Source of the DNA: Candidatus Methanomethylophilaceae archaeon
Lineage (GTDB): Archaea > Thermoplasmatota > Thermoplasmata > Methanomassiliicoccales > Methanomethylophilaceae
Assembly: GCA_017519045.1 (NCBI GenBank)
Contig: JAFWTC010000022.1
Location: 1 to 64,000, forward strand
DNA: 64,000 bases
Reading direction: 5' to 3'
Positions 3,938 through 61,402 of the stretch are shown piece after piece. The notes under the pieces are model-generated. The model worked only from the letters and a program-made list of their open reading frames with translations, was not told the origin of the DNA and searched no databases. A program made the translations under genes and the position numbers. Each line of letters starts with the position of its first letter. Positions within the stretch are counted from its first letter, which is position 1.

Positions 3938-5863
3938 TTGTCCCAGAGAAACGTCGCTAACGGAAAGGTCCCCGCCGCATGGTGCGACTCCTGCGGCACC
4001 ATTCTTCTCGGAGACCGTTGCTCCGTCTGCGGCTCGTCCGGAAGGGAGTTCGAGATCAACAGCCCCGGAGACGTCAGGCCGTGCATGGGGGACAGCGTAG
4101 ACATGGTCCTCGGCCTTTTCAGCGAGGCGTTCGGCACGGACTCCCCGCTGAGGGGAAAGGCGATGTTCCTCAACAAGGTCCCCGGCGAGGATCGCGCCGA
4201 CGAGGTCGTCGCATTCGGTGCGGTCATAGCCGTCGTCAGGTTCGACCTCAGGCTGGACCGCATGGTCCTTGACCTCAGGCAGGCGGGCGCGGAGCTCTTC
4301 TCGGAGGAGGCCGTCAAGGGGGTGGTGCGCTTCGCAGGGATGTCCGGACACCTGAAAGGGAAGGCCATCCCGGGGCAGAACGTCACCGAGTGCATCGGGG
4401 AGTTCCGGGAGGGCGCCCCGCTGATACTCAAGAAGGGGTCCAAGATAGGGGCCGGGGTCGCGCTGGCATCCTCCGAGGGAATCAGGGATGCGGAGAAGGC
4501 CGTGAGGATCCGCGACATAGCCGTGCCTGAATGGACATTCGAATCCAAAGACGCGGACTTGTCCGATTTCGTGAGGTGCAACAGGGACCACGTCCGCCGC
4601 CTCGCCCGCCGTGGGGTCAGGGAGATAAAGGAGTTCATGAAGGGCTCCTGCGGAGGCCTCCCCGTCACGGTCTCATTCTCGGGCGGGAAGGACTCCCTCG
4701 CGGCCTACGGGCTCGCCCGCGAGGCGGTCGGAGACCTGGACCTGATGTATCTGGACACGGGGCTCGAGTTCCCCGAGACCGTCGGGTACGTCCGCCGCTT
4801 CGTCGAGAAGGAGGGCAGGAGGCTCCATGTCGCGTCCGGAGGCGACGGGTTCTGGAGCAACGTGGACGCGTTCGGGCCGCCGGCGAAGGATTTCAGATGG
4901 TGCTGCAAGGTCTGCAAGCTGGGCCCGGTCACGTCGATGATAGAGTCGGATTTCCCGAAGGGCACCGTCACCGTGGAGGGTAACCGCTGGCTGGAGTCCT
5001 ACGCCCGCTCGGGGATAGGCTTCGTCACCAGGAACCCTTTCGTCCCCAACCAGGTCAACTTGAATCCGATACGCTCGTGGCGCGCCGCGGACGTGTGGGC
5101 GTACATCCTCTATTCCGGCCTGGAATACAATCCGCTCTACGACAAGGACTTCGAGAGGATCGGGTGCTATCTGTGCCCCTCGTGCCTGTCCAGCGAGTGG
5201 AGGAACACCGGGAGGATACATCCCGAGCTGTATTCCCGTTGGGAGGATTACCTGAAGGATTACGCGAGGAGGTCCGGCCTCTCGGACGATTACGTCCGCA
5301 TGGGGTTCTGGAGGTGGAAGGTCCTTCCGCCCAAGATGGTCCAGCTGGCCGGGGACATGAACGTCAAGGCGGTTCCGGAATCGGGTTCCGGACCCTCGAT
5401 GGACGTCTTGAAAGGTGCCTCCCCATGCGCCGCCGGAGGGTACTCCGTCGAGGCGGTCGTCCACGTCAGGAGGAGCAGGGACTTCTCATACGTCGAGGAC
5501 GCGCTGCGCACGTTCGGGGACACCAAGTACTCCCCGGACTACGAGATCGCCATGCTCAGGACCCCCATAGGAAGGGCCAAGCTGTTCGGAGGAGGGCAGG
5601 TGTCCGTGACCGCCCCGGACGCGGGGAAGGCCAGGGAGGTCTTCTCGATGGCGGTCAAGGCGCTGGTCAGGGTGCAGATGTGCACCGAGTGCGGGATTTG
5701 CGCTAAGAGCTGTCGCAGGCGCGCCATCAGGATATCCGGCGGGATGAGGGTAGACCCCGATAGGTGCACCGCATGCGGCCGCTGCGAGGAGTCCTGCATG
5801 GTAATGCATTATTACGACAAGCTCATGGGCGGGACCTCGGGCGGTAAGGGTAAAATACGGCGA
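3938..5863 (+). CDS. PUA / PAPS-reductase-family / ferredoxin protein
   Basis: A 641-residue protein. In order: an N-terminal zinc ribbon (WCDSCGTIL...CSVCGSS, residues about 16-38), a PUA-like domain (about 110-190, ending ILKKGSKIGAGVALA), a PAPS-reductase/ATP-PPase domain with PP-loop SFSGGKDS (about 246) and several Cys motifs, and a two-cluster ferredoxin domain (CTECGICAKSC, CTACGRCEESC; about 585-625). Homologs occur in many methanogens; an RNA- or sulfur-related redox role is inferred, not shown. Start is TTG 3938, since no in-frame ATG precedes the zinc ribbon. The frame reaches two CGA codons in tandem at 5861-5866 and then, without a conventional stop, the membrane protein starting at ATG 5879. 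I read the first CGA as the stop. Confidence 0.8.
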
Positions 5864-5878
5864 CGATGTGGGCTTGGC

Positions 5879-6595
5879 ATGGATCTGATCTTCGGCCTCG
5901 CCATGGTCCTCGGGATAGGCCCCGCGCTGGCTCTCATGTACCTAGTGGTCAGGAACTATACTTATCCCAGGGTGGAGCAGCCGTTCTTCAGCGACCCCGC
6001 CTTCTTCGGCCTGTTCGTGGTCGGGCTGGTGATAGGCTCCGTTCTGTTTCTCGCGCTGACGACGTTCAGGTTCGCGTCGAACCCCATATACATGGTCCTG
6101 TTCGCGGCCGTCGAGATGATGGCCATACTGGTCGTCATGAACCTCCGGAGGTTCCGCGGCAAGTCCGACTCCGTGTTCTACGGGTACGGCCTGGGCCTCG
6201 GGATGGCCAGCGGCCTCGCGACCGGCATATGCTTCGTCACGGCGAACGCCGCCGAGTCGTTCGACGCCTCCGCGGTGGCCATCGTAGCGATATCCGTGTC
6301 GCTCTCCCTGATCCTCGGGGCCAGCGCCACCGACGTCGGGGAGGGGATAGCCAGAAACTACCCCAACCAGTACCTCCTGAAGGGGCTGATCCCGCTGGTG
6401 GCGTACAACCTGCTTCTGACCGTCGCCCTTCACGGAGGGGAGATGGGAGGCGTGATCGTGTACTACGCCTGCCTCGTCCTCATGGTGGTAATCTCGGCGC
6501 TCTACTTCTACCGCAACATGTACGTCAGGCTTCCCGGCGTCGTGAGGGACGTCCTCAAGATGGAGGGGAAGAAGCGCGACGTGCCCGGAAGGCGA
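5879..6595 (+). CDS. multi-pass membrane protein of unknown function
   Basis: A 238-residue very hydrophobic protein with about seven predicted membrane segments, starting at ATG 5879 (MDLIFGLAMVLGIGP). With the standard code it has no stop of its own: it is in frame with the reductase upstream and runs on to a TAG at 7055-7057 through 450 bases antisense to the zinc-ribbon gene. The only in-frame CGA after its start and before that run-on is at 6593-6595, 3 bases short of the convergent gene's end at 6599. It resembles PrsW-like membrane proteins in length and topology, but I see no catalytic EExxK motif and assign no function. Confidence 0.7.
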
Positions 6596-6598
6596 CGC

Positions 6599-7036
6599 TC
6601 AGGCCTTGTACCTGCCGGGCCTGACCTCGATGATCAGGCACCGGTCCAGCATCGCCGAGACCATCTTCTCCGCCTTGTCTCCGGCGATCTCGCGGACGTC
6701 CTCCATGGTGAACTCTCCCTTGAGCTCCGTGAGCCCCTCCGCGAGGATCTCCATCTTGGTCTCCAGCCCGGAGCAGCGCTCGTACCTGTAGACGAGCGTG
6801 GAATGGGGGTCCGCCTCGGCGATGCGCCCTTTCTTCGCGGAGGCGTCGTGAGGGACGAACCCGGACGCCTGCGCCAAGGCCTCCCTCACCGCCCCCTGGT
6901 CGTTGGATGTGAAGTATACCGTGGCCGCGGAGCTGTCCAGAGGGGTTCCGCAGTAGGGGCACCTGCTCGTCTTCTTCGACAGGTCCACGACCCTGGGGCG
7001 TCCGCACGACTCGCACTTGCACAGGCCGTAGGTCAT
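6599..7036 (-). CDS. zinc-ribbon protein, conserved archaeal hypothetical
   Basis: A 145-residue protein. The N-terminal zinc ribbon CKCESC...CPYCGTPL (residues about 6-32) is followed by an acidic helical domain and a short basic C-terminus. It resembles small archaeal DUF1922/DUF5817-type zinc-ribbon proteins that may bind nucleic acid; no activity can be assigned. Its ATG lies 4 bases after the proposed CGA stop of pdaD, so the two are probably co-transcribed. It ends in TGA at 6599. Confidence 0.75.
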   Translation of the reverse strand: MTYGLCKCESCGRPRVVDLSKKTSRCPYCGTPLDSSAATVYFTSNDQGAVREALAQASGFVPHDASAKKGRIAEADPHSTLVYRYERCSGLETKMEILAEGLTELKGEFTMEDVREIAGDKAEKMVSAMLDRCLIIEVRPGRYKA

Positions 7037-7040
7037 CAGA

Positions 7041-7514
7041 TCGCCTGTACTCGCTGAATACGAGCGCGGCCAGGCAGCATCCGTAATGGTCCATGGGGAT
7101 GGACAGCTCCTCGGTCAGGAACCGGGTCTCCTCGAACTCGGTCCTCCTCACGCGGGCCATCTCCGCCATCTTCCATCCCAGGATCTCCTTGAGGGACTCC
7201 GCCGAGCCGTGTATGTGGCCCTCGGCGACGTATCCTCCCTTCCCGTCCTTGCGGTACGCGTAGGCGATCCCGGCGGATATCGTCTCCCCCTCGCATCCGC
7301 GCATCTGGGCGAGGACGCAGTGGGTGACGGCGCCCATGGGCATCTTCTTCATCTCGGTCATCTCGGCGCCCTCCGGTATCACCGAGGACACCGACACCAG
7401 GTTCTGCTCGCCTATGCCGGCTTTGATGAGCGCTATGTCGAAGGCGTTGAGGTCGGAGACCTCGCTCACCGCGGAACTGCTGGTGATGAAGAATCTAGAG
7501 GGCACGAGCTCCAT
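7041..7514 (-). CDS. pdaD: pyruvoyl-dependent arginine decarboxylase
   Basis: A 157-residue PdaD-family proenzyme. It cleaves itself at a Ser-Ser pair (SVSS/VIPEGAE; residues 43-44) to form the pyruvoyl group that decarboxylates arginine to agmatine for polyamine synthesis. The SSSAVSE N-terminus, DLNAFD and the GCCLAALVF C-terminal strand are typical. The family normally ends within a few residues of that strand, and the first in-frame CGA (7041-7043) comes right after SEYR, 4 bases before the ATG of the zinc-ribbon gene. Conventional reading runs to 6555, about 160 residues of antisense-like sequence. Confidence 0.85.
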
Positions 7515-20356: not shown

Positions 20357-20457
20357 TTAAAAATGCCTAGAGGAGATGCTCCAATCGGATCCTCCCGGGT
20401 TCCTCAACCCGGACGCTTTCCTCCATCCTGACGGAGATGAATGACCTCTGCGATTCT

Positions 20458-20466
20458 GTTTATAGC
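20458..20466 (+). promoter_or_regulatory. TATA box of ArsA-type ATPase cluster
   Basis: GTTTATAGC about 25 bases before ATG 20488, consistent with a leaderless transcript. Confidence 0.45.
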
Positions 20467-20487
20467 CAGAACGCGGTTCACGTCCCG

Positions 20488-21654
20488 ATGAGGCTCATCA
20501 TATACACGGGAAAGGGGGGCGTGGGGAAGACGTCGGCCTCCGCGGCCACCGCATACAGGCTGTCCAGGCTCGGATACCGTACCATACTGGTGAGCGCGGA
20601 CTCGGCCCATTCCCTGGGGGATTCCCTGGGCGTCGATCTGGGCAAGTCCATCACGAATGTGGCCGAGAACTTCGACGCCCTCGAGATCGACATAATACAC
20701 GAGATGTACTCACGCTGGAACGACATACAGCAGTACGTCTCCGCCTTCATGCTGTCCCAGGGGATGGGCGACATATCCGCGGAGGAGATGGCGATCTTCC
20801 CGGGGATGGAGATGATCTCCGCCCTGTTCTACCTGAACACCTTCAGCAAGTCGGGAGAGTACGACGTCGTGGTCCTGGACACGGCTCCGACGGGGGAGAC
20901 GCTCAGGCTTCTGAGCTTCCCGGACGTGTCCAACTGGTATTTGGACAGGATGTTCTCCATGGTCAGGAAGATGATAGGCGTGGCCCGCGCCACCGTCGGA
21001 AGGGTGATGGACATGCCTCTGCCGTCCAAGCAGGTCATGGACTCCTTGGAGGACATCAAGAGGAACATGAGGGATGTGAAGGCCATCCTGGAGGACTCCG
21101 AGAAGACCACGGTGAGGCTCGTCCTGAATCCCGAGCACATGGTCATTAAGGAGACCATGCGCGCCTACACCTACCTATGCCTGTACAACAAGAACGTCGA
21201 GGCCCTGGTGGTCAACAGGATGGTCCCGCCAGAGGCGGACGACGGATTCCTCGCCGAGAAGCTGAAGGAGCAGGAGGCCCATATGGAGGAGATCCACAAC
21301 GTGTTCGACCCGCTTACCATGAAGCGCTGCTACATGATGAGGACGGAGCTCAGGGGCCTCGACAAGCTCGACCAGATGGCCGAGATGCTCTTCGGCGACG
21401 AGGACCCGGCCACGGTATACGCCTCCGAGAGCCCCATGTCGTTCAGGACGGTGGACGGGGTGGACGAGCTGGTGATGAAGATGCCGTTCGTCGACAAGAG
21501 CGAGGTGGAGCTGTTCAGGATAGACTCCTCCATGATCATGGTGCACGTGGGGAGCCAGAAGCGCAGCATACAGCTGCCGGACACGCTCACGCGCGCGGAG
21601 ATCGCCGGGGCATCCTTCAAGGACGGAAACCTGGTTATAAAGTTCAAGAGGCGA
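20488..21654 (+). CDS. ArsA/Get3-family ATPase
   Basis: A 388-residue ArsA/TRC40-like ATPase. The deviant P-loop GKGGVGKT (residues about 8-15), the Switch I DSAHSLGD and the Switch II DTAPTGETLRLLSFP are intact. The C-terminal part ends in a small beta domain (SIQLPDTL...GNLVIKFKR) as in ArsA proteins with a C-terminal Hsp20-like module. Start ATG 20488 follows TATA GTTTATAG by about 25 bases; ATG 20437 would put coding sequence over that promoter. The first in-frame CGA, right after KFKR at 21652-21654, is one base before the next gene's ATG. Conventional stop would be at 21831, out-of-frame over the next gene. Confidence 0.85.
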
Positions 21655-22108: not shown

Positions 22109-22701
22109 TGGACATCGAGCAAGGCAAGGCGGCCGTGAGGTTCGCCCGCTCCGCGGTGGAGGCGGAGGTCTCCCGCTCGGAGGTCGGAAAGGCTCCGGAA
22201 GGTCCTGGATTCTCCGATCCCCGGGGGGCGTTCGTCACCATGAACACCTATCCTGGTGGAAGCCTGAGGGGGTGCATCGGATACCCCTATCCGGTCATGC
22301 CGCTGGCCAAGGCCATAGAGGAGTCCGCGAGGTCCGCCTGCCACGACCCCCGCTTCCCGGACCTGTCGCCGGAGGAGACCGACGGGATAGTGGTGGAGGT
22401 GACGGTGCTTACCGTCCCCGAGGCCATTCCCCCCATGCCTCCTGACGTGATCGCCGAGTCGATCCGCATCGGGCGCGACGGTCTCATGCTGGAGCTGGCG
22501 GGATGCCGCGGGCTCTTCCTTCCTCAGGTCCCCGTGGAGCAGGGGTGGGACGTCCAGGAGTACCTGGGCTTCCTGTCCATGAAGGCAGGCCTTCCGTACG
22601 GGGCCTGGAGGGACCCCCGCGCCAGGCTGTCCAGGTTCGAGGGTGAAATCTTCTCCGAGACGTCCCCGCGCGGCGACGTCGTGAGGAGGGATGCGGAGTG
22701 A
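22108..22701 (+). CDS. AMMECR1-domain protein
   Basis: A 197-residue AMMECR1-family protein with the signature LRGCIG (residues about 53-58) and LPQVPVEQGWDVQEYLGFL near the C-terminus. The family is conserved in archaea and eukaryotes; its biochemical role is unsettled, though association with radical-SAM AmmeMemoRadiSam proteins suggests a modification role. The start overlaps the preceding CGA, and its TGA overlaps the GTG of dihydroorotase (GTGA). Confidence 0.9.
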   Translation: MDIEQGKAAVRFARSAVEAEVSRSEVGKAPEGPGFSDPRGAFVTMNTYPGGSLRGCIGYPYPVMPLAKAIEESARSACHDPRFPDLSPEETDGIVVEVTVLTVPEAIPPMPPDVIAESIRIGRDGLMLELAGCRGLFLPQVPVEQGWDVQEYLGFLSMKAGLPYGAWRDPRARLSRFEGEIFSETSPRGDVVRRDAE

Positions 22702-23963
22702 CCTTCGACCTGGTGGTCCGGGGGAGCGTCTACGTCGACGGCCGGGTCTCCTACCGCGAGATAGGCGTGGAGGACGGGAGGATAGCCTACGTGGGCAGGA
22801 GCGCCGGCCGCGCTGACAGGCGCATCGACGTCGGCCCCGGGAAGACCGTCCTTCCAGGATTCACGGACCCCCACGTGCATTTCAGGGACCCCGGGATGAC
22901 GCACAAGGAGGACTTCTCCACCGGGACCCTGTCCGCAGCCTACGCCGGGGTGACGTGCATCCTGGACATGCCGAACACGCTCCCCCCAGTCGTCGACCTC
23001 GGCACGTTCAAGGCCAAGAAGGACGCGGTCCGCGGAAGGGCCCACGTCGATTACGGGCTGTTCGCGGCCGTGACCGCCGGATGCGATCCGTCGCCTTTGG
23101 CTCCGCTGGTACCAGGATTCAAGCTGTTCATGGGATCCACGACGGGAGAAATACTCCTGAACGACGACGCCGACCTGGTTCCGGCCGTCACGCGCGTCCT
23201 GGCCACCGGCAAGCGCATGAGCGTCCACGCCGAGGACGACTCCATGATCTCGAAGTCCGACGCCGGATGCACCCGCGACCATCTGCGCAACCGCCCTTCC
23301 TCCGCGGAGCTGAGCGCGATAGGGAGGCTGGCCTCCAGGTTCTCCGGGTCCAGGATCAACATCTGCCACATCACCACGGCGGAGGGCCTGGATGCGGCAA
23401 GGTCCGCCGGATTCACGACCGAGGTCACGCTCCATCACCTGCTGTTCGACGTCGACCGCTGTCCCGGCGCCGAGTACAAGGTGAACCCGCCCATCAGGGA
23501 GCCGTCGGCCCGCGAGGCCCTCTATCGCAGGTTCACGGCCGGCGACATAGCGATGTTCGGCTCCGACCACGCCCCCCACACCGTCGAGGAGAAGGCCCGC
23601 GGGTTCAAGGAGGCTCCCGGAGGCATCCCCGGCGTCGAGACCACCGTCCCGATCGCGATGGAGATGGTCCGCAGGGGCGAGATCCCCCTGTCCATGGCCG
23701 TGAGGATGGGCGCGGAGGCCCCTGCCGAGGCGTTCTCGATGAGGAAGGGAAGGATAGCGGAAGGGTATGACGCGGACCTGTGCGTATTCGACCTCCGCTC
23801 GTCCTCGGAGATAGACGTCGGAAGGCTCCACAGCAGATGCGGGCACTCCCCTTACGGCGGGTTCAGGGCGGTATTCCCCGATACGGTAATAATCAGGGGA
23901 GAGGTTCAGGTCGACGGCGGCGAGTTCTGCGGAGAGCGCCTAGGATGTGACGTTTGTGGCCGA
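22698..23963 (+). CDS. pyrC: dihydroorotase
   Basis: A 421-residue class I dihydroorotase that interconverts carbamoyl-aspartate and dihydroorotate in pyrimidine synthesis. Metal-site motifs DPHVHFRDPGMTHKE (residues about 56-70), the ICHITTAE histidine and GSDHAPH are present. In class I enzymes a lysine is often the carbamylated bridge. Start GTG 22698 overlaps the AMMECR1 TGA. The first in-frame CGA is at 23961-23963, close to the family's usual C-terminus, overlapping the next gene (GTG 23947) by 17 bases. Conventional reading would extend 150 residues over that gene to 24416. Confidence 0.88.
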
Positions 23964-27026: not shown

Positions 27027-30000
27027 TCATTCCTCGTATTCCCTCTTGTACAATTTGCGGTGACGGAGCACCATGTACGTCGCCATGACGACGGAGGCTG
27101 CGATGAACGCGATCGCCAAAGCGAGGGCGTTCTTCTCCACCCATCCCTCCTCGGGGACCGCTCCGGTCTGATCCTTGGTCACGTCCAGCCTGTTGAGGCT
27201 CCTCTCGACGACCTTCCCGTCCTTGTTCGTCACTGAGAGGCCGATCTTCTCCAACTGTATCTCCAGGGCGTCCCCCCTCTTGAGGTCCACAGACGCCTTC
27301 CTGACGTCGATCTCCGCATCGCCGTAGGAGTCCAGGACCGTGGTCCCGTCCTTGCCGTACAACGTCATTCCGCTTGACGACATGAGCAGCCTGGCTTCTG
27401 CGCTGAAATCGTCGTTCTTGATCGCCGGGACTATAGCGAGTATGCCCTGCTCCTTTGGATCATACCCGTCAACGTGCAGGGCTCCGTTCGTCAGGGAGAC
27501 GACGGAATCCTCGCTGACCATTTTGAATTCGATGTCGTAGTATTCGAAAGACATCGTCCAGGGCATGAACAGGTTCACGGAGAATCCCACGTCCTTTCCG
27601 AAATCGGCCTCGAATCCTCCTGAGACCTCGTCGGTGCTGCACGTGAGACGGACGATCCCGTTCTCGCCGTTCACGACGGTGTTGTCCGAGAGCACCAGGG
27701 AATGTCCGATGGATGTGACCTTGCCGACGAGAGATGTGACGTCATTGTACTCGGAGTATCCGATGGAGAGGACGACGTTCACGTATTTCGGAGAGGTTTC
27801 CGACATCTTCTCGTTGGTAAGCGAGATGAACTCCTTCTCTTTGCCGTATTCCAAGCGGATGCTCTCGTTGGACAGGGTGACCTCCGCATGCGTCTCCTCG
27901 GAGAAATCCACCCCGTAAAGGAACGCGTCTATGCATTCCGTAAGGGACCCTTGGGAGACCATGACGATCTCGGAGGATCCGGAGCGGATGCTGACCGTTC
28001 CCTTCTTCAGGTCCATGGACGTGGCCATGTCCTCGAACGTCAGAGACATCACGTTCTGCCCGACCGCGCTCTTGCTCAAGGCGGCGCCCAGCCCGGAGAC
28101 GAGGATTTCGTATTCCCCGTCCGCATCGATGTCTAGGGAGGCGTGCGAGGCGCCGATGTCCATGCTGTCGCCGCAGTCCAGAAGCTGCTGGACGGTCAGG
28201 GTCCCTTCCCTTTCGATGATGTCGTAGGCGGCTCCGATGTCGAATCCGCCCACATCGGACGAAAGGTCGTCCAGGACTGCCTTCAGTTGGGACGACTTGC
28301 TCGTGGAATACGGGATGCTCAGGAACCTTCCGGAGGATTCTCCGTCGATATGGGCCTCCACGACGGTAGTGTACCCGGAGGCGTCCAGCCTTCCGCTGAC
28401 AGTGGTCTGGTCGTTGTAAGAGGAATGGATCATCCTCAGGTCGAGACGGACCGGGGATCCGGCAGGATCGTCTTTAGACGTGAACGACAGGGAGTATGAT
28501 CCGCCGTCCTTGTCCACCCTTAGGTCGAGCCATCCGCTCTTCAGGGACAGATCTGCGTCGGCGTCCTTCTCGAACTTCATGCCGTCGAGGACCAGGTCCA
28601 CCAGCTCCGAGAACTCGACGTCCGAGGACAGCGACAATTCGGTGGATGCGGCCCGGATGTCTACCGCCATATCCTCGAGGGGGACGGAGGCCTTGGCATT
28701 CTCCATGACGAAGGCGATGACCGCCAGCCCGTCCACGTTCCTGGAGAGGCCGGCGCTGGCATCGTCCAACACGACATCGGATTCGCCGTCCCCGTCCCAT
28801 TCCACTTCCGCATGTCTCGTAGAGAGCTCTATCGAATCGCAATGGTCGAGTACCTGCTGGATGCTTAGCCCTCCATCATCGTAGACCTGCAGGAGGTACG
28901 ATATCTCCAGTCCCTTGACGTCAAGGGCGGGGCCGTTTGCCATGAGGCGGAGGTCGTCCCCTTTCAGCGGCAGTTTCCCGCGATGCAGGCCGCGGCTCTC
29001 GAATTCCAATACGTATCCTTCGGCGTCGGCATCCAAGTCCAGAAGGGTCTTCGAAGCGGCCTCGACGTTCTGCAGGGATGCCTTCAAGGTCATAACGGAT
29101 GTGCCCGGGCCGCCGTCCTCCGAAAGTGACAGGGAAACGGATTCGCTGGAATAGGACATGACGGCCCATGTCAGGAAAGCCTCGGCATCCATACGGACGT
29201 CGGATTCGAACTCCAGTCCGTTCTCGATGATGTCCGCGATTTCGGAGAACGGCGCATCGGATGCGAAGTTCGCCTTCACGGAGGAGGATTCCAGCTCCAT
29301 TGCGCCGTCCTCCACGTCAGCGGACAGGGACAGGCGGCTCGATTCGAATTGAAACGAGCTTTCCGGAACTGTTCCGATTCTCAGCACCGGCCTCTCGGCG
29401 TTCAGGGTGAGATTTTTATCTCCATCAGTATGGACGTCCAGGCCCTTCGCGGCGAACTCCAAGGACTTGCAGCAGTCCAGCATCTCGGGGGCGATCGTCC
29501 CCTTGTCGTCGTAGATGGAGGCTATGGCGCCCAAGTCTGCCTCCGATACGTTCAGGGACGGGCCGGAAGCGGTCAGGTCGAGGCTGCCGTCAGCGCTCGT
29601 GGCCTTGGCGGTCATTACATGTTCCTCGGCCTTCACGTTCAAATCGAGAAGCGTTCTGGAGGATGCCTTGTAATACGACAAGGATGCGGCGACGGTCACA
29701 AGCGATTCTTGATCCGCTTCCGAGACCGATATCGACGCGGTCTCCCCGGAGTAGGTAGCTTCAAGATCATCCAAGCTCGCCTCCATTGACATCTTCGCAT
29801 CATATCCGAGCTTGAGCCCGTCCTTGAAGACGGCCAGAAGGTCGCTGAACGGCGCTCCTGAAGTCAGATGGGCGGACGACGCCCCCGCGCTGACATCCAG
29901 CACCCCGTCGTCGAAGGGGGCATGGGCCGTAAGCGAGCCGCATTTCGCCGAGGCGGTGTACCTGCCGGAAGAATCTGTCTTTACCTCAGCAGATGCGAAC

Positions 30001-33000
30001 TCGAACCTGAGATCTCCACGTTCGAATTCGGCGGAGGAGGCTTTCGCGGTTACGCTTTCCGCGTTGTCCAGAAGCGTGGCGATATCGAAGTCCTTCGACT
30101 CGAGCATGGGGCGTATCGCTTCCAGGTTCACGTCCTCGAGCTTCAGCTCCGGGTCGGATGCGGACGCCTCCATATCCGCGCTCTTTGCCGACACCTCGTA
30201 TCCTAGGGCGGACAGCCCGGCGTCCAGAACCGACTTGGACCATCTTTCGGAGTGCTCGAGAGATAGCTCCACGGACAGGACGGAGGACTCGCTCCCTGAG
30301 ACCACGATGCCGGTGGACCCGGCCGCATAGTCGGCTTCGGCGCCGGCAAGCTCTGCATCCAGGTCGATTGATGCGTCGGAATCGAATTCGAAGCCGTTTT
30401 CGTAGATCTTCTGTAGCTTTTCGAACGTCAGGTCGGATGAGAGGGATGCCTTTGCGGATGCCGCTTTCAGCTCCAACCTGCCGTCATCCGTCGGAACGGA
30501 AACGGACAGGCGGCCCGAGGCGAGCTTCAAGGAGCTTCCGGGATTCGACCTCGTTTCCAAGGTCAGTTCCTCGGCATTCAGGCTGACGTCCTTCTCTCCG
30601 GTCGTCAAGACCTCTAGGCTTGAGGTGGAGATTCCAAGGGATCTGCAGGAGTCCAGCATCTTCAGGGTGAACGTTCCGCTCTCATCGTAAGCGGAGATGA
30701 TCGCATCCAGGTCTGCCTCCGTCGCCTCGATATGCGGGTCGGACGCATCCACATTGGTCGAACCGTCTCCGGAGTCATTCGCTTCCATGGTGACGTCGTA
30801 TCCGTCGGCGTCCAGTTTCAGATCCAACAGCGTTCTGGAATCGGCTTCGACATGTTTCAGAGACGCCTCGACAGTCGCCACGGACGTGCCTGTTCCGCCT
30901 TTTTCAACGAGCGACAAGGATACGGATTCGCTGGAATAGGACACGGCGGCCCCTGTTAGTAAAGCCTCGGCATCCATCCCGACGTCGGATTCGAACTTCA
31001 GTCCGTTCTTGAACGCATCCAGGACGGTTCTGAACGAAGAGTCGGAGGTGAAGCGGGCAGATACGGCCCCGGCATCGGCATCCAGCATTCCATTGTCGGA
31101 AGGGACGTGCGCCGAGAGGGATCCGCATTCCGCCGAGGCCGTGTACCTGCCGGAGGAGTCTGTCTTTATCTCAGCAGACGCGAGTTCGACCCTAAGGTCG
31201 CTGCGCTCCAATTCGGCGGAGGAGGCCTTCACAGTCACGCTTTCCGTATTGTCCAGAATCGTGGCGATGTCGAAGTCACCGGATTCGACCATGGGGCGGA
31301 CGGCATCCGCGTCCATGTCCTTCAGTTCCAATTCCGGATCGGATGCTGACATTTCCAGGTCGTTCTTCGCGCTCTTCACCGAAATCCCGTACCCGGGGGC
31401 GGACAGCTCCGCGCTCAGCAGCGTCTTCGCCCATCTTTCGGAGTGCTCGAACGACAGCTCTGCAAACAGGGCTGACGGCTCTTCCCCCGAGATCACTACA
31501 TGCGCGGCGTCGCTGTCATAGTCCAGATGCGCTCCCGTCAGGCGCGCCTCGACGTCTATGCTAGCATCCGAGTCGAATTCGAAGCCGTCGTCATAGGCCT
31601 CTTGGAGCTTCTTGAAAGACTGGTCGGAGGAGAGGGACAACGATACGGACGCGGCTTTCGCCTCGAAATCGCCGCCCTCTATCGGAACCGCGATGTCAAT
31701 ACGGCCGGAATTGACGGAAACGCTGTGCCTTACGGTCGAATTCGATTCTATCCTCAAGTCTTTGAATGTCGCGTGGACGTCGTCGTAGTCCACCGCGGCG
31801 GATTCCGCTGCCACTACGATCCTTTCCGTGCCGTCCATTATGTCGGCGGGACCGATCTGTTTTGCTTCCTCGTGGATCCTGGCGAGGTCCATGTCCTCCA
31901 GAGTAGCTTCCGGATTGGACAGGACGATATTCAGAGACGATCCCTTTTCGTAATCGTGCACTTCGACGGTGATCCTGTATCCCGAAGCGGAGAAGTCTCC
32001 GTCCAGAAGGGTGGAGTCTTTGTAGGTCGTGTGCCTGACCGACAGGTCCAGCTCCATCGCAACCGCGGCGGAGGAGGTCTTCTTGCCGATGATGGAGACG
32101 GACTTGTCCGTTCCGGAGTAGTCGATGTCGACGCCATCGGTCTTCGCCTGCAGCGTCATCTCGGAATCGGCGGTGATCCTCGAGCCCGATTTCAGCGCAT
32201 CGATATATTCTGCAAGGGATCCGTCGGTCGAGAGGTATATCGTGGTTCTGCCGACATCGGCTTTTAGCGTCCCGTCTTCGAGCGCCATCGTTCCTTTGAG
32301 GCCATCGATGCTCAGAGTCAGGGTGCTCATCATTCTGCCGTCCTCCTCGAGGACCACGTCCAGGCCCCTCACGGCCATCTCGCGGCCGTCCTTGGCGTAG
32401 ACGGCGGAGGATATGTACGAATGGAGGCGCTGGCAGTTGTCCAGGAGCAGTTGGACGTCCATCGTCCCGGTTCTGGAGATTGCCTCGTACAGCCCTTTCA
32501 GGTCGAGGTTGTCGATCTCCAGCTCCAATCCGGATGCGTCCAAGCTTGAAGGAGCCCCGTCGAACGGTTCGATTTCTACTCTTATATTGGATACGGAGAC
32601 GTCCAGGTCCATCATGAGCGAGCTGCTCAGGCCGAACGAATCTATCACCAGCTCGGACGTGGAGATCTTGTAGCGGCCGTTCTCGTCCGTCCATTGGATC
32701 GTCAGGATATAGGACGTCGATCCGTTCCTTTTCATCACGACGGATGCGTCGGAGACGCCCTTCGTCGTCCCTTCGGCCAGGTTCTCGATCTTCACGGAGC
32801 GGGCGGTCACGTCGACCTCCTCGATGAGATCGGACGCGTCCGGCTCGGAATCGCCGGAGATTTCTGAATCTAGAATCTTGAACAGCACCGTCAGGTCGAA
32901 GGCCAGGCTCCAATCGATGTCGTCCACGGAGGTTCTGCTTTGGAGGGCGCCGTTCAAGCTTCTCTCGAAGACGGCATTGCCGATGTGCGAGGAGACGTGA

Positions 33001-33809
33001 AGGGTTCCGTCGTCGTCCAGGGACGAGTCCAGCCTGTCGAATCCAGACCAGAGGGAGGATCTGGTCAGGCCGCTCTCCTGGTAATGGGTGGACGTCTTCA
33101 CGCTTGAGACGTTCATGTCCTTGACGTAGACGTGTCCTTGCCCCTCGTCCTTGAGATAGAACGCCAGGTCTAGGGCATCCCCTGGGTCGTTCGACACCAT
33201 CGTCAAGGAGCTGGAGCTGACCAGCTTGTTTCCGTCGTACTTGTCCCTGGTAAGAGTCAGCTCGGAGAACCCCGTCTTGACGTCGGCGGTCCCCGGTCCG
33301 AACCTGACGAGGATGTTCGGGTCTTGCAAGGTCAGGGCGGAGTTTCCGTACGTCGCATGGACGCCATGGTCGGATCCGGAAGGCTCGAAGCCGAGGCTCA
33401 ACGTGCCGGAAAGGGGCTTGAAATCCAGCCTTATGGTTCCTTCGAACGTGATCGCGACGTCCTCCGTGGATTTCGGAAGCGTCACCGTGCCAATCGACAG
33501 CGGCCTTCCGCCTTCGAACACGACGCTCCCACCGGAGCTGGATATCGATGCCGACCCTATGGCGGCCATCTTGGAGCCTTGTCCGATCTCCAGCGTATGA
33601 TCCCGGATGTCGACGCTCGCTCCGTCGAGAATCAGTATGTCGGAGCCGCCCTCAATACGCAGGTCGCCGTCCAGGGCGGTGTCGCCCTTGACGATGACGA
33701 TTCCGTCTTCCGACGTTATGTCCGCATTCGCTTGTTCGAACGCGGCGGGCACGGCCGCCATCAGGGCCGTGGCAATCATCGCAATCAGGATCGCATGGAC
33801 TGTCCTCAT
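27027..33809 (-). CDS. giant repeat-containing surface protein, C-terminally anchored
   Basis: A 2,260-residue protein with an N-terminal signal peptide (about residues 1-29), a beta-rich segment, then about ten degenerate repeats of about 198 residues (595 bp). Each has recognisable pieces such as DLELDALK/EFDSDASID, SERWAKTLL, LDNCESVTVKASSAE and SDSSFRTVLDAFKNGL. It ends in one transmembrane helix (ALALAIAFIAASVVMATYMVL) and a basic cytoplasmic tail, so it is probably displayed outside the cell. Strongly acidic (Asp/Ser-rich). Its ATG overlaps the TGA of the MFS gene upstream (ATGA). It contains no CGA codon in 2,260 codons. Adhesion or a cell-envelope role is plausible but unproven. Confidence 0.85.
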   Translation of the reverse strand: MRTVHAILIAMIATALMAAVPAAFEQANADITSEDGIVIVKGDTALDGDLRIEGGSDILILDGASVDIRDHTLEIGQGSKMAAIGSASISSSGGSVVFEGGRPLSIGTVTLPKSTEDVAITFEGTIRLDFKPLSGTLSLGFEPSGSDHGVHATYGNSALTLQDPNILVRFGPGTADVKTGFSELTLTRDKYDGNKLVSSSSLTMVSNDPGDALDLAFYLKDEGQGHVYVKDMNVSSVKTSTHYQESGLTRSSLWSGFDRLDSSLDDDGTLHVSSHIGNAVFERSLNGALQSRTSVDDIDWSLAFDLTVLFKILDSEISGDSEPDASDLIEEVDVTARSVKIENLAEGTTKGVSDASVVMKRNGSTSYILTIQWTDENGRYKISTSELVIDSFGLSSSLMMDLDVSVSNIRVEIEPFDGAPSSLDASGLELEIDNLDLKGLYEAISRTGTMDVQLLLDNCQRLHSYISSAVYAKDGREMAVRGLDVVLEEDGRMMSTLTLSIDGLKGTMALEDGTLKADVGRTTIYLSTDGSLAEYIDALKSGSRITADSEMTLQAKTDGVDIDYSGTDKSVSIIGKKTSSAAVAMELDLSVRHTTYKDSTLLDGDFSASGYRITVEVHDYEKGSSLNIVLSNPEATLEDMDLARIHEEAKQIGPADIMDGTERIVVAAESAAVDYDDVHATFKDLRIESNSTVRHSVSVNSGRIDIAVPIEGGDFEAKAASVSLSLSSDQSFKKLQEAYDDGFEFDSDASIDVEARLTGAHLDYDSDAAHVVISGEEPSALFAELSFEHSERWAKTLLSAELSAPGYGISVKSAKNDLEMSASDPELELKDMDADAVRPMVESGDFDIATILDNTESVTVKASSAELERSDLRVELASAEIKTDSSGRYTASAECGSLSAHVPSDNGMLDADAGAVSARFTSDSSFRTVLDAFKNGLKFESDVGMDAEALLTGAAVSYSSESVSLSLVEKGGTGTSVATVEASLKHVEADSRTLLDLKLDADGYDVTMEANDSGDGSTNVDASDPHIEATEADLDAIISAYDESGTFTLKMLDSCRSLGISTSSLEVLTTGEKDVSLNAEELTLETRSNPGSSLKLASGRLSVSVPTDDGRLELKAASAKASLSSDLTFEKLQKIYENGFEFDSDASIDLDAELAGAEADYAAGSTGIVVSGSESSVLSVELSLEHSERWSKSVLDAGLSALGYEVSAKSADMEASASDPELKLEDVNLEAIRPMLESKDFDIATLLDNAESVTAKASSAEFERGDLRFEFASAEVKTDSSGRYTASAKCGSLTAHAPFDDGVLDVSAGASSAHLTSGAPFSDLLAVFKDGLKLGYDAKMSMEASLDDLEATYSGETASISVSEADQESLVTVAASLSYYKASSRTLLDLNVKAEEHVMTAKATSADGSLDLTASGPSLNVSEADLGAIASIYDDKGTIAPEMLDCCKSLEFAAKGLDVHTDGDKNLTLNAERPVLRIGTVPESSFQFESSRLSLSADVEDGAMELESSSVKANFASDAPFSEIADIIENGLEFESDVRMDAEAFLTWAVMSYSSESVSLSLSEDGGPGTSVMTLKASLQNVEAASKTLLDLDADAEGYVLEFESRGLHRGKLPLKGDDLRLMANGPALDVKGLEISYLLQVYDDGGLSIQQVLDHCDSIELSTRHAEVEWDGDGESDVVLDDASAGLSRNVDGLAVIAFVMENAKASVPLEDMAVDIRAASTELSLSSDVEFSELVDLVLDGMKFEKDADADLSLKSGWLDLRVDKDGGSYSLSFTSKDDPAGSPVRLDLRMIHSSYNDQTTVSGRLDASGYTTVVEAHIDGESSGRFLSIPYSTSKSSQLKAVLDDLSSDVGGFDIGAAYDIIEREGTLTVQQLLDCGDSMDIGASHASLDIDADGEYEILVSGLGAALSKSAVGQNVMSLTFEDMATSMDLKKGTVSIRSGSSEIVMVSQGSLTECIDAFLYGVDFSEETHAEVTLSNESIRLEYGKEKEFISLTNEKMSETSPKYVNVVLSIGYSEYNDVTSLVGKVTSIGHSLVLSDNTVVNGENGIVRLTCSTDEVSGGFEADFGKDVGFSVNLFMPWTMSFEYYDIEFKMVSEDSVVSLTNGALHVDGYDPKEQGILAIVPAIKNDDFSAEARLLMSSSGMTLYGKDGTTVLDSYGDAEIDVRKASVDLKRGDALEIQLEKIGLSVTNKDGKVVERSLNRLDVTKDQTGAVPEEGWVEKNALALAIAFIAASVVMATYMVLRHRKLYKREYEE
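27027..33809 (-). repeat. tandem ~595-bp coding repeats, with ~1.19-kb higher-order copies
   Basis: Matching blocks recur at a spacing near 595 bp. For example GTGTACCTGCCGGA occurs near 29955 and 31141 (about 1,186 apart), GGAGTGCTCGA near 30250 and 31440, and AGCCTCGGCATCCAT near 29179 and 30964 (about 1,785 apart). Some alternate units are more alike than neighbours, suggesting duplication of two-unit blocks. The clearest copies lie between about 28.5 and 32.2 kb. Confidence 0.7.
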
Positions 33810-35320
33810 AGGGTCTTCCTCCTTCCGACCAGTAAAAGGGCCGTGGGTATCGCGACGATGACGAAGATCGCCGATCCGTACAGCAGGGCCTGGGCCATTC
33901 CCTCGGCGTAGACCTTCGCTATCTGGTCCGTCAGGCCCGGAAGCAGCTTCAGGAGCTCTTTGAGAGGGGTTATCAAGAGGTTTGCGAGGGTGCTGTCCGC
34001 AGGGATCTCGAACGGGAGTATCTCGTTCCAGTGCTCCAGGAAGGCGCTGAGCCTGGCCGTCATGTGCTGGTCCGTGACGTATTGGTAGAAGTTGTATCCG
34101 AGCCAAAGGGCGGCGGTGCGGGCCATTATGGCGAATCCCACGTATGCGCAGTTGTCGTCCTCGGTGGTCCTGTTCTGGATCGTGGCATTTAGCATGGAGA
34201 CCAGGCACCCTATGGCCAGGCCCAGGAGGTAAAGATGGATCGCGAACACGAAAGAGGGGTCGTCTTCCTGCACCAGCATCATCGACAGGAGGGCTATCGG
34301 CGTCAGGATGATGCTCAGCAGGAACCATATCAGGTGGCCGGTCCTGTCTATCTTCTTCGATATGGTTATGGCCGTGGTCGCCGCCCCCAGGACCAGGACG
34401 ATGAAGAACGGGGCCGCCTCCAGTATGGACATCTGGTAGGTGAAGAACGCTATCTTTATCATGGACCCCACCGCGGCCATGTCTATCATCCCCAGCAGGA
34501 TGATGAATATCAGGGACGCGGCGATGAGCCTCTTGTTGTCCAGCCTGCGATGGATGACGGAGTTCAGGTTGACGGTCTCCACCAGCACCAGCGCGACGAT
34601 GAGCATGCATAGGAAGGCGACCCCCATTAGGGCCTCCATGCTGAACACCCCCCAGTCGAGGTACAGCTTCTGGAGGAAATACACGAAGAACCCGACGAGG
34701 ACCATCATGATGATCGATCCGGGGTAGTCAGCCTTCTTCTTGCTCGGCTCCCCCTTGGACAGGAACTGGAGGGAGGGGTAGGTCACTATGGCCTGGAGCG
34801 CGGCCATCGCCCAGAAGGTGAGCTCCCAGCCCATCCCGTCGATTATGGCCTTCCCTAGGAACACGCCCACCAGCATCCCCAGCCCGAAGCCCAGGGACAT
34901 TATCCCGTTCGCGAGGTAGCGGAACTTGTGGTTCGGGACGTCGTAGTATATCTGCGCGATGCAGACGATTATGATTATGCCGGCGCCGAAGCCTTCGACG
35001 ATGCGGAAGAATATGAAGGCGCTCATGTCCGTGCTCATGGCGCATGCTATGGAGCCCATGATGAACAGCACGGACCCCAGGAGGTACGGCTTCTTCCGTC
35101 CCATGCTGTCGATGATGCTGGCGAACAGCCCCATCGCCGCGCATTCCCCGCCGACGAAAGCGGGGAAGGTCCAGGCGTAGCCCTTGGTGGGGAACGAGTT
35201 GAGATCGATCATGAGGTCCAGCGACAGTATCTGGGTGAACGTCGCCGGGACGCACACTATGAAGGTGCTGAACGACAGGAGCCACAGGCCCGGCATCGCT
35301 TTCTTGATTTCCGCATCCAT
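33806..35320 (-). CDS. MFS transporter (sugar-porter-like)
   Basis: A 504-residue MFS protein with about 12 helices plus a long C-terminal loop. The signatures DSMGRKKPYLLGS after helix 2 and the FRIVEGFGAG helix 4 segment are typical. Start ATG 35320 preferred to TTG 35326. It overlaps the giant surface-protein gene by 4 bases (ATGA), so they are translationally coupled and likely act together, for example in uptake or export at the cell surface (inference). It ends with TGA. Confidence 0.85.
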   Translation of the reverse strand: MDAEIKKAMPGLWLLSFSTFIVCVPATFTQILSLDLMIDLNSFPTKGYAWTFPAFVGGECAAMGLFASIIDSMGRKKPYLLGSVLFIMGSIACAMSTDMSAFIFFRIVEGFGAGIIIIVCIAQIYYDVPNHKFRYLANGIMSLGFGLGMLVGVFLGKAIIDGMGWELTFWAMAALQAIVTYPSLQFLSKGEPSKKKADYPGSIIMMVLVGFFVYFLQKLYLDWGVFSMEALMGVAFLCMLIVALVLVETVNLNSVIHRRLDNKRLIAASLIFIILLGMIDMAAVGSMIKIAFFTYQMSILEAAPFFIVLVLGAATTAITISKKIDRTGHLIWFLLSIILTPIALLSMMLVQEDDPSFVFAIHLYLLGLAIGCLVSMLNATIQNRTTEDDNCAYVGFAIMARTAALWLGYNFYQYVTDQHMTARLSAFLEHWNEILPFEIPADSTLANLLITPLKELLKLLPGLTDQIAKVYAEGMAQALLYGSAIFVIVAIPTALLLVGRRKTL

Positions 35321-40718: not shown

Positions 40719-42281
40719 TCGCCTTCCAGATCCCGACTGTCTCATGAGGGCGTACTCCAGCGAGTCCTTCAGGGCCGCCAGGCTCGCCCCGATTATGTTG
40801 ACGGAGACCCCGACCGTGGTCCATTCCTCCCTTCCGTCGGTGGACTTTATCAGCACGCGGACGCCCGTGCTGGTGCCGGAGCCCTCGTCCAGCACCCTGA
40901 CTTTGTAATCAGTCAGCCTGACGTCCTCGAGCTCGGGGAAGAAGCATCCCAGGCCTTTGCGCAGGGCGTTGTCCAGCGCGTTCACGGGTCCGTTCCCGTC
41001 CGCAGCGGTGTGCGCCGTCCTGCCGTTCCTGTCGGTGACCTTGATGCTGGCCTCCGATTCGGTCCCCTCGTTGCGGTCGTCGGTGTAGACCCTGAACCCG
41101 GTCACGTCGAACATCGGCTCCATCTCGCCCCTGAGCCTCTTGACCAGGAGCTCGAAGCTCGCATCCGCGCCCTCGAACTGGTAGCCGCGGAACTCCAGGT
41201 CCTTCACGGCGCTTACGATCGCCTCCTTGTCGTCGCCCTGTTCCAAGCCGAGGCGCCCCAGCTTCTCGGTGATGCTGGCCCTTCCGGCCATGTCTGACAC
41301 CAGGATCCTGCGGACGTTCCCTACGGACGCCGGGTCTACGTGCTCATACGTGCGGGGGTCCTTCGATAGCGCGGACACGTGCACCCCTCCCTTGTGGGCG
41401 AAGGCGCGACCGCCTACGTACGGCATGCCCGGGTTGGGGACCATGTTGGCCACCTCCCCCACGTACCTGGACAGGTCCGTGACCGTGCTCGGGTCGATGC
41501 CCCCCAGGTCCATCCCCATCTTGAGGGACAGGTTGGGGACCAGGGCGCACAGGTTGGCGTTCCCGCACCTCTCCCCGATGCCGTTGACGGTCCCCTGGAC
41601 CATGGAGCATCCTGCCTCCACGGCGGCCAGGGAGCAGGCCGTGGCCAGGTCCGAATCGTTGTGGCAGTGGATTCCCAGAGGGATCCCGAGTTCTTCCGAC
41701 GCCTCTCCGACGGCCCTGCGGACCATGTCGGGCAGGCTGCCGCCGTTGGTGTCGCACAGCACCGCCCATTCCGCTCCAGCCTCCTCCGCGGCTTGTACAG
41801 CTTCGATGGCATATCCGGGGTTCGAGGCGAACCCGTCGAAGAAGTGCTCCGCGTCGAACAGGACCCTCTTCCCCGCATCCTTCAGGAACGAGACGCTGTC
41901 CCTTATCAGGCGGACGTTGTCATCGAGCCCTATCTCCAAGGCCTCCCTGACATGGAAGTCCCACGTCTTTCCGAATATGCAGCACCATTCCGATCCGCAT
42001 CCGGCCAGCGCCTTGAGGCCCGCGTCCTCGTCCGCTGGAACGCCCGGGCGGCAGGTGCTCCCGAAGGCCACCAGCTTCGATCCGGACAGGCGCAGCTTCG
42101 ATGCGCGGGAGAAGAACTCGTCGTCCTTCGGGTTGGATCCCGGCCAGCCCCCTTCGATGAAGTCGGCTCCGAAGGCGTCCAGCCTCCTGGCTATGTCGAT
42201 CTTGTCGCCGCATGAGAATGAGACGCCCTCGGTCTGGGCGCCGTCCCTGAGCGTGGTGTCGTAGACGTAGACTCTCTTCAT
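40719..42281 (-). CDS. cimA: (R)-citramalate synthase / 2-isopropylmalate synthase-like
   Basis: A 520-residue CimA-type enzyme. The HMGL-like TIM barrel has TTLRDGAQTEGVSF (residues about 9-22) and GIHCHNDSDLA; the C-terminal domain is LeuA-allosteric-like. It condenses pyruvate with acetyl-CoA to citramalate for isoleucine in many methanogens. Start ATG 42281, 1 base after the CGA of homoserine dehydrogenase. In-frame CGA at 40719-40721 lies 4 bases before the ACT gene's ATG. Conventional stop is 40683-40685, 12 codons into the next gene. Confidence 0.85.
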
Positions 42282-42282
42282 C

Positions 42283-43284
42283 TCGTCCCTTCGTCCTTCT
42301 CTCGAGTATCGCCATCAGGTCGCTGAGGATGGCCGACGCCGTCTCCGCGCGTCCCGCGCCCCTTCCGGACACGGTGACGGGACCGGCGAGGTCCGTGACG
42401 ATCTGGGCGGTGTTCAAGGTGCCGGATATGCTGAGCGGGTGCCCCTTGGGGATCAGCCTGGGCCCGACCTCGAGCCTGCTGTCGCTCACCTCGCCTATGA
42501 GCCTTATGACCATGTTGCGGGAGGCTGCCATTGACACGGCCTCCTCGGTTATCGACGTTATGCCGGTGATCTTGATGTCATTGAAGGTGACGTTCCTGCC
42601 GAACACCGCGTTGGCTAGTATGGCGACCTTGCATGCGCTGTCGTAGCCCTCGATGTCGTTGGTCGGGTCGGTCTCGGCGTATCCCAGCTGCTGGGCCTCC
42701 TTCAGCGCCTGGTCGAAGGGCTGGCCCTTGTCCATCTTGCTGAGGATGTAGTTGCAGGTTCCGTTGAATATCCCGCGTATGGAGACTATCTTCTCCCCCA
42801 TGAGGTTCTCGGCGCACAGGTTCAGTATGGGCATGGCGCCTCCCACCGAGCCTTCAAACCTTAGCATGCACCCGTTCTTCTGGGCGAGTTCCGTAAGCTC
42901 GGCGTACTTCAGCGCCAAGGGCCCCTTGTTCACGGTTATGACGTCCTTGCCGCGCTTCAAGGCGGAGATGATGTTGCCCAGCCCCGCGCCGCCGGTCTTG
43001 ACGTCGGTCGGGCTGACCTCCACGAGCACGTCGTAGTCGGCCTTCGCCAGGACTTCGGCCGGATCGGTGTAGCCCTTGTCGCCGACGGTGCGCTTCTCCT
43101 TCTTCCTGGCCACGAGGGCGAGGGGGTCCAGGCCCGCGGGGTCGCACACGTACGTGCGGGAGTCCATCGCGCCGGTTATCGACACGTCCTGCCCGAACCT
43201 GTCCTTGATCATCTTCCCTTTGGACGCCAGAACCTCGGCGAACCCCTGGCCGACCGTGCCGAATCCGCATATGAAGACCTTCAT
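42283..43284 (-). CDS. hom: homoserine dehydrogenase
   Basis: A 333-residue homoserine dehydrogenase (aspartate semialdehyde to homoserine). NAD(P)-binding GFGTVGQG (residues about 7-14), catalytic region KGPLALKYAEL, and GIFNGTCNYIL and DIEGYDSACK motifs are clear. Single-domain type without ACT; the ACT regulator is the next gene upstream, 1 base away. The CGA at 42283-42285 is directly followed by G and the ATG of cimA (CGAGATG). Conventional reading continues 121 codons over cimA to 41920. Confidence 0.92.
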
Positions 43285-60118: not shown

Positions 60119-60789
60119 TGAAGGCGGTGGTCCTCCTTTCCGGAGGGCTGGACTCCACCACCACTTTGGCCCAGGCGCTCGCGGACGGGTGCGAGGTCGT
60201 CGCCTTGAGCTTCAGGTACGGCCAGAGGCACACGAAGGAGCTGTCCTCTGCCGAGAACGTCTGCAGGCATTACGGGGTCCGCCACATAATCGTCGATCTG
60301 GACCTCAGCTCCTTCCGTTCGGCGCTCACCCGCCCCGACATAGACGTTCCCATGGACCGCGAGGGGAAGCTGGACGAGAGCATCCCCATCACCTACGTCC
60401 CTGCCAGGAACATAATCTTCCTCAGCGTGGCCGCGGGGCTCTGCGAGTCCGTGGACGCCGACAGGATATACATAGGCGCGAACGCCGTGGATTACTCCGG
60501 ATACCCGGATTGCCGTCCCGAGTTCTTCGACGCGTACGAGAGGATGATAGCCGTGGGCACCAAGGCCGGGGTCGAGGGCCGTCCGATCAAGGTGATGACT
60601 CCGATAATGCATGATTCCAAGGCCGACATAGTGCGCCGCGGCAAGGAGTTGGGAGCGCCCTTGCATCTCACGTGGTCCTGCTACAACGGCGGGGAGAAGG
60701 CGTGCGGCCACTGTGACTCGTGCAGGCTGAGGCTCAAGGGCTTCGAAGAGGCCGGATACAAGGACGAGATAGAGTATGAGGATCTGCGA
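60118..60789 (+). CDS. queC: 7-cyano-7-deazaguanine synthase
   Basis: A 223-residue QueC making preQ0 from 7-carboxy-7-deazaguanine. The PP-loop LSGGLDSTTTL (residues about 7-17) and a C-terminal zinc site (CYNGGEKACGHCDSCRLR) are clear. The first in-frame CGA at 60787-60789, after IEYEDL, gives the usual family length and overlaps the queE start by 14 bases. Conventional reading runs on to 61017 over queE. Confidence 0.92.
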
Positions 60790-61402
60790 GTTGTTCCTTT
60801 CCATACAGGGCGAAGGCCTCATGATGGGGGTCCCGACGTTCTTCATAAGGTCCGTCGGATGCAACCTGTCCTGTTCCTGGTGCGACACCGGGTATTCCAT
60901 GTCCGGCGGGGAGGAGATGTCCGTGGAGGAGATCATGCGCCGGGTCGGCGACTGCGCCCACGTGTGCGTCACCGGAGGCGAGCCCATGCTCCAGCCAGAC
61001 ATAACGGATCTGCTTGATGCGCTCGTCCGTGCGGGCAAGCACACGGTGCTGGAGACCAACGGGGCGACCGATCTGTCCAAGGTTCCCGACGACCGCCTGG
61101 TCATGATAAGCATGGACATCAAGTGCCCCTCGTCGGGTATGACCGACAGGATGCTGCTTTCCAATCTCGCGTATCTTTCCGGCAAGGACCAGCTGAAGTT
61201 CGTCATCGCCGACGACCGCGACTTCGACTTCGCGGTCGGATTCCTGAGGGACAATGAAGTGAAGGCCAATGTCGTCTTCACCCCGGTCGGAGGCGTGGAC
61301 AGGCTGGAGTGGCTCGTTTCGCGCGTCCTGGAGTCCAAGGCCGACGTACGCGTCCTGCCTCAGCTCCATAAGGTGATATGGGGCGACCGCAGAGCGGTGC
61401 GA
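60776..61402 (+). CDS. queE: 7-carboxy-7-deazaguanine synthase
   Basis: A 208-residue QueE, a radical-SAM enzyme. The cluster motif CNLSCSWCDTG (CxxxCxxC type with this family's variant spacing; residues about 29-39) and CVTGGEPMLQ are present, with RVLPQLHKVIWG near the C-terminus. It converts 6-carboxytetrahydropterin to CDG. The first in-frame CGA is at 61400-61402, after GDRRAV, 6 bases from the convergent gene's end. Conventional reading runs to 61765. Confidence 0.9.

Follow-up and report, generated by a model that had tools for sequence, protein, structure and literature searches.

The codon CGA, which specifies arginine in almost all life, very probably acts as a genuine translation stop in the gut methanogen studied here (Methanomethylophilaceae) and in its relatives, i.e. 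a sense codon has been turned into a stop codon, most likely one read by the archaeal release factor aRF1. As far as genome sequences can tell, genes terminate at CGA, their interiors are almost free of it, and a single copy is fixed in the gene for aRF1.

The window denotes the whole stretch of DNA that was analysed (64,000 nucleotides). Positions 3938-7057 on its forward strand form a single open frame of 1,039 codons under translation table 11, terminated by TGA. The CGA codons of this frame are numbers 642 and 643 (5861-5866), 886 (6593-6595), 907, 1014, and 1024. The tandem pair and the first single CGA mark the joints of the frame, exactly where the first-pass annotation had put them, and the last three all fall into the run-on tail. 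The span is composed of the following features:

3938..5866 (+): PAPS-reductase/4Fe-4S protein gene (PRK13795-like, 641 codons), ended by tandem CGA CGA; supported by NF010366, by the homologue at locus L295, and by a separate frame in congeners
5861..5866 (+): tandem in-frame CGA, inferred stop
5879..6595 (+): gene for a small membrane protein (238 codons, then CGA); 30 of 31 congeners have an orthologue, which in most adjoins the reductase in a frame of its own
6593..6595 (+): single in-frame CGA at which the membrane-protein gene is inferred to stop; the ends of homologues differ by no more than a few residues
6596..7057 (+): non-genic antisense run-on that contains another three CGA
6599..7036 (-): zinc-ribbon protein gene (DUF5817-like; weak match, E 2.7e-5), TGA end
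7041..7514 (-): pyruvoyl-dependent arginine decarboxylase gene (PF01862), CGA end at 7041-7043

The reductase matches the NCBIfam model NF010366 (PRK13795) with residues 14-632 of the 641 preceding the first CGA (E 3.5e-196); the model is matched over its full length, yet the score of 653 bits stays below the curated cut-off of 745. PAPS_reduct and 4Fe-4S domains are detected in this first gene. A PUA domain, likewise attributed to it, could not be substantiated, as Pfam gave no match. The membrane-protein gene starts with the ATG at 5879 and belongs to no family in Pfam or NCBIfam, and the convergent zinc-ribbon frame ends at 6599. Both forward genes contain many other arginine codons and not a single CGA upstream of the joints.

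The comparison with separate homologues, proposed along with the two-gene reading, came out in its favour. Every one of the 31 genus genomes has the reductase, 29 of them at full length, and 30 also encode the membrane protein; in most of them the two genes are same-strand neighbours in different open frames, so that a family of natural fusions is ruled out. Only this genome, among the 31 congeners compared, has both genes in one frame (1,061 residues in that comparison). The reductase homologue of L295 ends with TAA at offset 0 from the CGA of this genome's gene and is followed by the membrane protein. The C-terminus of the membrane-protein homologues ('...MEGKKRDDIPRMK*', against '...MEGKKRDVPGR-CGA' in this genome) ends consistently across the relatives. 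Separate frames in congeners, a standard stop at the aligned position, and agreeing C-termini together confirm, at the level of sequence comparison, that the apparent fusion consists of a PRK13795-type reductase gene and a small membrane-protein gene, each ended by CGA, plus an antisense run-on. The earlier reading had recognised these two forward-strand genes and had missed that the span also has a third CGA-ended gene, which lies on the opposite strand and encodes arginine decarboxylase: PF01862 covers its residues 4-153 (profile positions 1-160 of 161), and its first CGA is codon 158.

Further genes of the window are predicted to end with CGA:

20437..21654 (+): ArsA/GET3-type ATPase gene; PF17886 (HSP20 domain) reaches residue 403 of 405
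22698..23963 (+): dihydroorotase gene; PRK01211 covers residues 7-417 of 421; run-on to the next standard stop 150 codons
39067..40431 (-): PRK05313/DUF711 gene; NF003700 covers residues 2-454 of 454 (profile 2-452 of 452)
40719..42281 (-): citramalate synthase gene; TIGR00977 covers residues 4-516 of 520
42283..43284 (-): homoserine dehydrogenase gene; NF004912 covers residues 1-331 of 333 (profile 4-341 of 343); run-on 120 codons
60118..60789 (+): QueC gene; PF06508 covers residues 2-212 of 223
60776..61402 (+): QueE gene; TIGR04349 covers residues 1-206 of 208; run-on 120 codons

For several of these, curated protein models stop at or near the CGA, a line of evidence independent of the relatives. 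A frame of 2,527 codons at 27027-34610 (-) contains CGA only within its first 236 codons; its real start therefore probably lies after codon 236.

The use of CGA as a gene end was assessed in about 1.88 Mb of the same genome, gathered in stretches. Coding segments were called by codon scoring in which CGA was given a weight of zero and was thus unable to shape the gene calls. When frames were split at CGA, the ends of 1,302 coding pieces were TGA (866), CGA (332), TAA (66), and TAG (38). Coding segments contain 0.27 CGA per 1,000 codons, compared with 25 per 1,000 for the background. A CGA is reached before a standard stop in 329 of 1,286 segments; 291 of these 329 first in-frame CGAs lie between -10 and +30 codons from the end of the coding signal. 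The mean coding score falls from +0.40 before CGA to -0.78 after it, with 192 of 210 values below zero thereafter. Past each of ten control rare codons the mean remains above zero (+0.05 to +0.35); the two smallest values belong to TTA (+0.18 to +0.05) and CCA (+0.25 to +0.19), which also start lower. Since the coding signal persists past these, mere rarity of CGA is ruled out as an explanation. For 18 CGA-ended genes, 172 comparisons with the standard stops of homologues were made, and in 167 the stop is at most five codons away from the CGA. By these measures CGA ends about a quarter of the genes and is nearly purged from gene interiors. Most of the CGAs inside segments are joints of tandem genes recognised by eye (enolase, thymidylate kinase, hydantoinase, and three nitrogenase-like pairs). 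The latter are three paralogous pairs of NifH-like and NifD-like genes, as judged by eye, with a CGA as their in-frame joint (codon 278 in the scored segment) (G000:C66:23350, C15:5909, and C11:21447).

A few single observations from the same genome can be added. In a CobQ-like frame, a CGA at G000:C39:17700-17702 (-) replaces the Gln of the CGGYQMMG motif (CGGY-CGA-MMG), which is either a nonsense mutation, an assembly error, or odd decoding. A tRNA-Pyl(CUA) gene is present at G000:C8:64703-64776 (-), and some of the 38 TAG-ended coding pieces may reflect pyrrolysine codons. Two small contigs (L080 and L081; G000:C48 and C49) have zero G+C and were probably masked as N.

The notion that CGA still denotes arginine, that it is just rare, and that the long frame is a true fusion can draw on the openness of this frame under table 11 and on the tRNA-Arg(UCG) gene of this genome. 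Against the separate genes of the congeners, the genome-wide drop of the coding signal past CGA, and the homologues' stops at the same positions, it has practically no standing.

The surroundings of the CGA ends bear on how termination might be achieved. CGA overlaps the ATG of the next gene by one base, as CGATG, in 66 of 332 cases, compared with TGATG in 42 of 866 TGA stops. T occupies position +4 after 142 of 332 CGA stops, and the flanking preference at the 332 ends is weak, at most 0.41 bits per position and partly due to the CGATG overlaps. A second, standard stop follows within ten codons after 121 of 332 CGA and 235 of 866 TGA ends. Conversion of CGA to UGA in the mRNA by C-to-U editing, followed by ordinary termination, would account for the fact that a single base, the edited one, separates CGA from TGA, the commonest stop, and would be compatible with the ordinary recognition motifs of aRF1. 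Such editing would have to act on 332 sites with only a weak flanking preference, and no mRNA C-to-U editing system is known in archaea; DNA alone cannot exclude editing, which we nevertheless regard as very improbable. Hardly better placed is the idea that CGA is an unassigned, hungry codon at which ribosomes stall until freed by the rescue machinery, without release catalysed by aRF1. It would suit the degenerate or missing tRNA-Arg(UCG) described below and the slight excess of nearby standard stops after CGA; it sits poorly with a quarter of the genes, core metabolism included, ending this way, with the 66 CGATG overlaps, which suggest normal termination and reinitiation, and with the location of the conserved CGA in aRF1 and in no rescue factor. 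Should editing or stalling take the place of direct recognition, as either could, the genomic conclusions would remain unchanged.

Relatives were surveyed at 80 aRF1 loci obtained by a scan of genome contigs, which were searched by tblastn with the proteins of this genome. Within the genus, CGA-ended genes account for 5 of 16 at L292, 5 of 19 at L294, 8 of 12 at L370, 2 of 12 at L302, and 2 of 16 at L300, and only two CGA occur among the aligned arginine codons of the genus loci. Outside the genus, L333 (COG_1) has 3 of 11, and single cases were found in L349 and L360. CGA-ended genes recur in the COG_1/UBA78 lineage. At the Methanoplasma loci and others, CGA is used as arginine. The presence of CGA-ended genes in independent assemblies (L292, L294, L370, and L333) rules out assembly or sequencing error. 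L339 (UBA593) shows no CGA among 246 aligned arginine codons, and CGG is its main arginine codon (141 of 246).

The aRF1 gene of this genome (G000:C4:6367-7563) contains a lone in-frame CGA, which occupies a conserved arginine position (codon 68 of the matched region). Of the 27 genus genomes that cover the site, 26 share this lone CGA; G079 alone differs, with CGC at the position and an aRF1 gene that is itself CGA-ended. At 34 loci the genes around aRF1 are free of CGA (none among 7,214 arginine codons), and 32 of these have exactly one CGA in aRF1, although these loci share ancestry and statistics on them overstate independence. The position is codon 68 throughout the genus (except L370/G079) and in L321 and L328, codon 15 in the COG_1/UBA78 clade and L329, codon 40 in L318 and L330, and codon 1 in L319. 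Synonymous sites beside the CGA are constrained in the genus ([GT]CT CGA CTN), and the frame is unchanged past the codon, i.e. there is no +1 frameshift. In L370, the relative richest in CGA stops (8 of 12), the aRF1 CGA is lost.

From this pattern it is inferred, with good but not high confidence, that the aRF1 CGA serves as a feedback switch. It might instead be a relic or a pausing site in an organism where CGA is otherwise a stop. This finds some ground in the richness of aRF1 in CGA even with CGA as an ordinary arginine codon: its CGA share is then 7.2%, versus 2.3% in neighbouring genes, and outgroups of the order have 67/705 in aRF1 versus 61/1426 in the neighbours. Part of the association between aRF1 and CGA therefore predates stop use. 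In the aRF1 genes of L114-L143 and L292-L371, CGA was seen two- to threefold above the neighbours even where it means arginine. The retention of CGA in aRF1 while 7,214 neighbouring arginine codons were purged of it, the constrained synonymous context, and its disappearance in the most CGA-stop-rich relative make a relic or pausing site unlikely, if still worth serious consideration. The aRF1 CGA is conserved even in lineages where CGA stops are scarce, which suggests that sensitivity of aRF1 to CGA preceded the takeover of the codon.

That aRF1 is the reader of CGA is likewise an inference, for which we have fairly strong confidence and no peptide, Ribo-seq, or biochemical data. A change in codon reading by the release factor is usual in sense-to-stop codes and not strictly required. 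Among the known codon-reading motifs of aRF1, no single change tracks CGA use; NIRS replaces the near-invariant NIKS motif only in this genome (G000) and in G085. A second class-1 factor was rejected as a candidate, as the other matches in this genome are weak, below the cut-off, and resemble a match found in most congeners.

The competing decoder would be tRNA-Arg(UCG). This genome has tRNA-Arg genes with the anticodons GCG, CCG, CCU, UCU, and UCG, and the last, still being present, should compete at every CGA, which counts against termination there. Pair 31-39 of its anticodon stem is broken (A.A or C.A) in all 19 genus genomes where the tRNA was found and intact (C-G or U-A) in the nine outside genomes with a readable stem. 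Two pattern searches did not find the tRNA in 12 genus genomes, some of them complete, where it could have escaped detection through an intron or a diverged T-loop. A rule linking absence of the aRF1 CGA to loss of this tRNA had to be discarded: G079 fits, G024 retains the tRNA, which is missing from several genomes that do have the aRF1 CGA.

In the proposed mechanism, aRF1, as the sole release factor, would terminate translation at CGA, aided by the weakened or lost tRNA-Arg(UCG). At its own CGA, termination would compete with reading as arginine (by a reader that is unidentified where tRNA-Arg(UCG) is lacking), and aRF1 would thereby limit its own synthesis, as bacterial RF2 does via an in-frame UGA. 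In bacteria, prfB (RF2) contains this UGA together with a +1 frameshift (PMC12421855, PMC13245932), and bacteria with high UGA use lose the motif (PMC12421855). In both systems the release-factor gene includes, early and in frame, a single example of the stop read by its product, and this internal stop is lost where that stop is heavily used (L370 for CGA). In aRF1, however, the codon is CGA and the frame continues, so that readthrough as arginine is needed. As RF2 and aRF1 are unrelated, the parallel is one of logic and not of homology. Autoregulation by readthrough is also described for plant eRF1 (Nyiko et al., 2017, as described in PMC11062462). This likewise concerns a factor of the eRF1/aRF1 family and a contest of termination and readthrough on its own mRNA, but involves the terminal stop and NMD, unlike the internal CGA of archaeal aRF1.

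Other deviating codes offer partial parallels. Sense-to-stop changes are known for UCA/UCG in mitochondria of sphaeroplealean green algae and for UUR in those of Pycnococcus (PMC6821328). There, too, a codon has disappeared from coding sequences and been given a new role as a stop, and its tRNA is lost, but these organelle genomes contain only a few genes and rely on an RF1-type factor, whereas the archaeon has a cellular genome, hundreds of CGA-ended genes, and aRF1. Codetta inferred sense-to-sense reassignments of CGA, CGG, and AGG in bacteria and no amino-acid change in archaea (PMC8629427); the labile codons are again arginine codons, but a codon turned into a stop would appear there only as uninferred. 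Transfer RNAs with 4-bp anticodon stems occur in organisms with altered stop meaning (PMC13092985). Here as well, the stem is shortened where stop meaning is altered; the top pair is open in that paper's focus set, whereas in tRNA-Arg(UCG) it is the bottom pair 31-39, for which there are no functional data. Nothing relevant on a CGA stop code in prokaryotes was found in the literature searched, which left most subscription papers and preprints outside its coverage, and priority is unproven.

Changes from stop to sense are frequent, and changes from one sense meaning to another are also known. In the literature found, sense-to-stop changes are reported only from mitochondria (PMC6821328). With somewhat more than even confidence, we propose that these methanogens are the first case, outside organelles, of cellular genomes with a sense codon turned into a general stop, and that their aRF1 both reads CGA and controls its own synthesis through one retained CGA. 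If true, sense-to-stop change would extend to free-standing genomes, and the rule that class-1 release factors require U at the first position would be challenged. Automatic annotation of these methanogens, gut members included, would contain hundreds of false fusions and wrong C-termini. The lineages would also preserve living intermediate stages, from CGA as arginine, through CGA purged except in aRF1 and CGA as a minor stop, to CGA as the main stop, which would make the order of events in the takeover of a codon testable.
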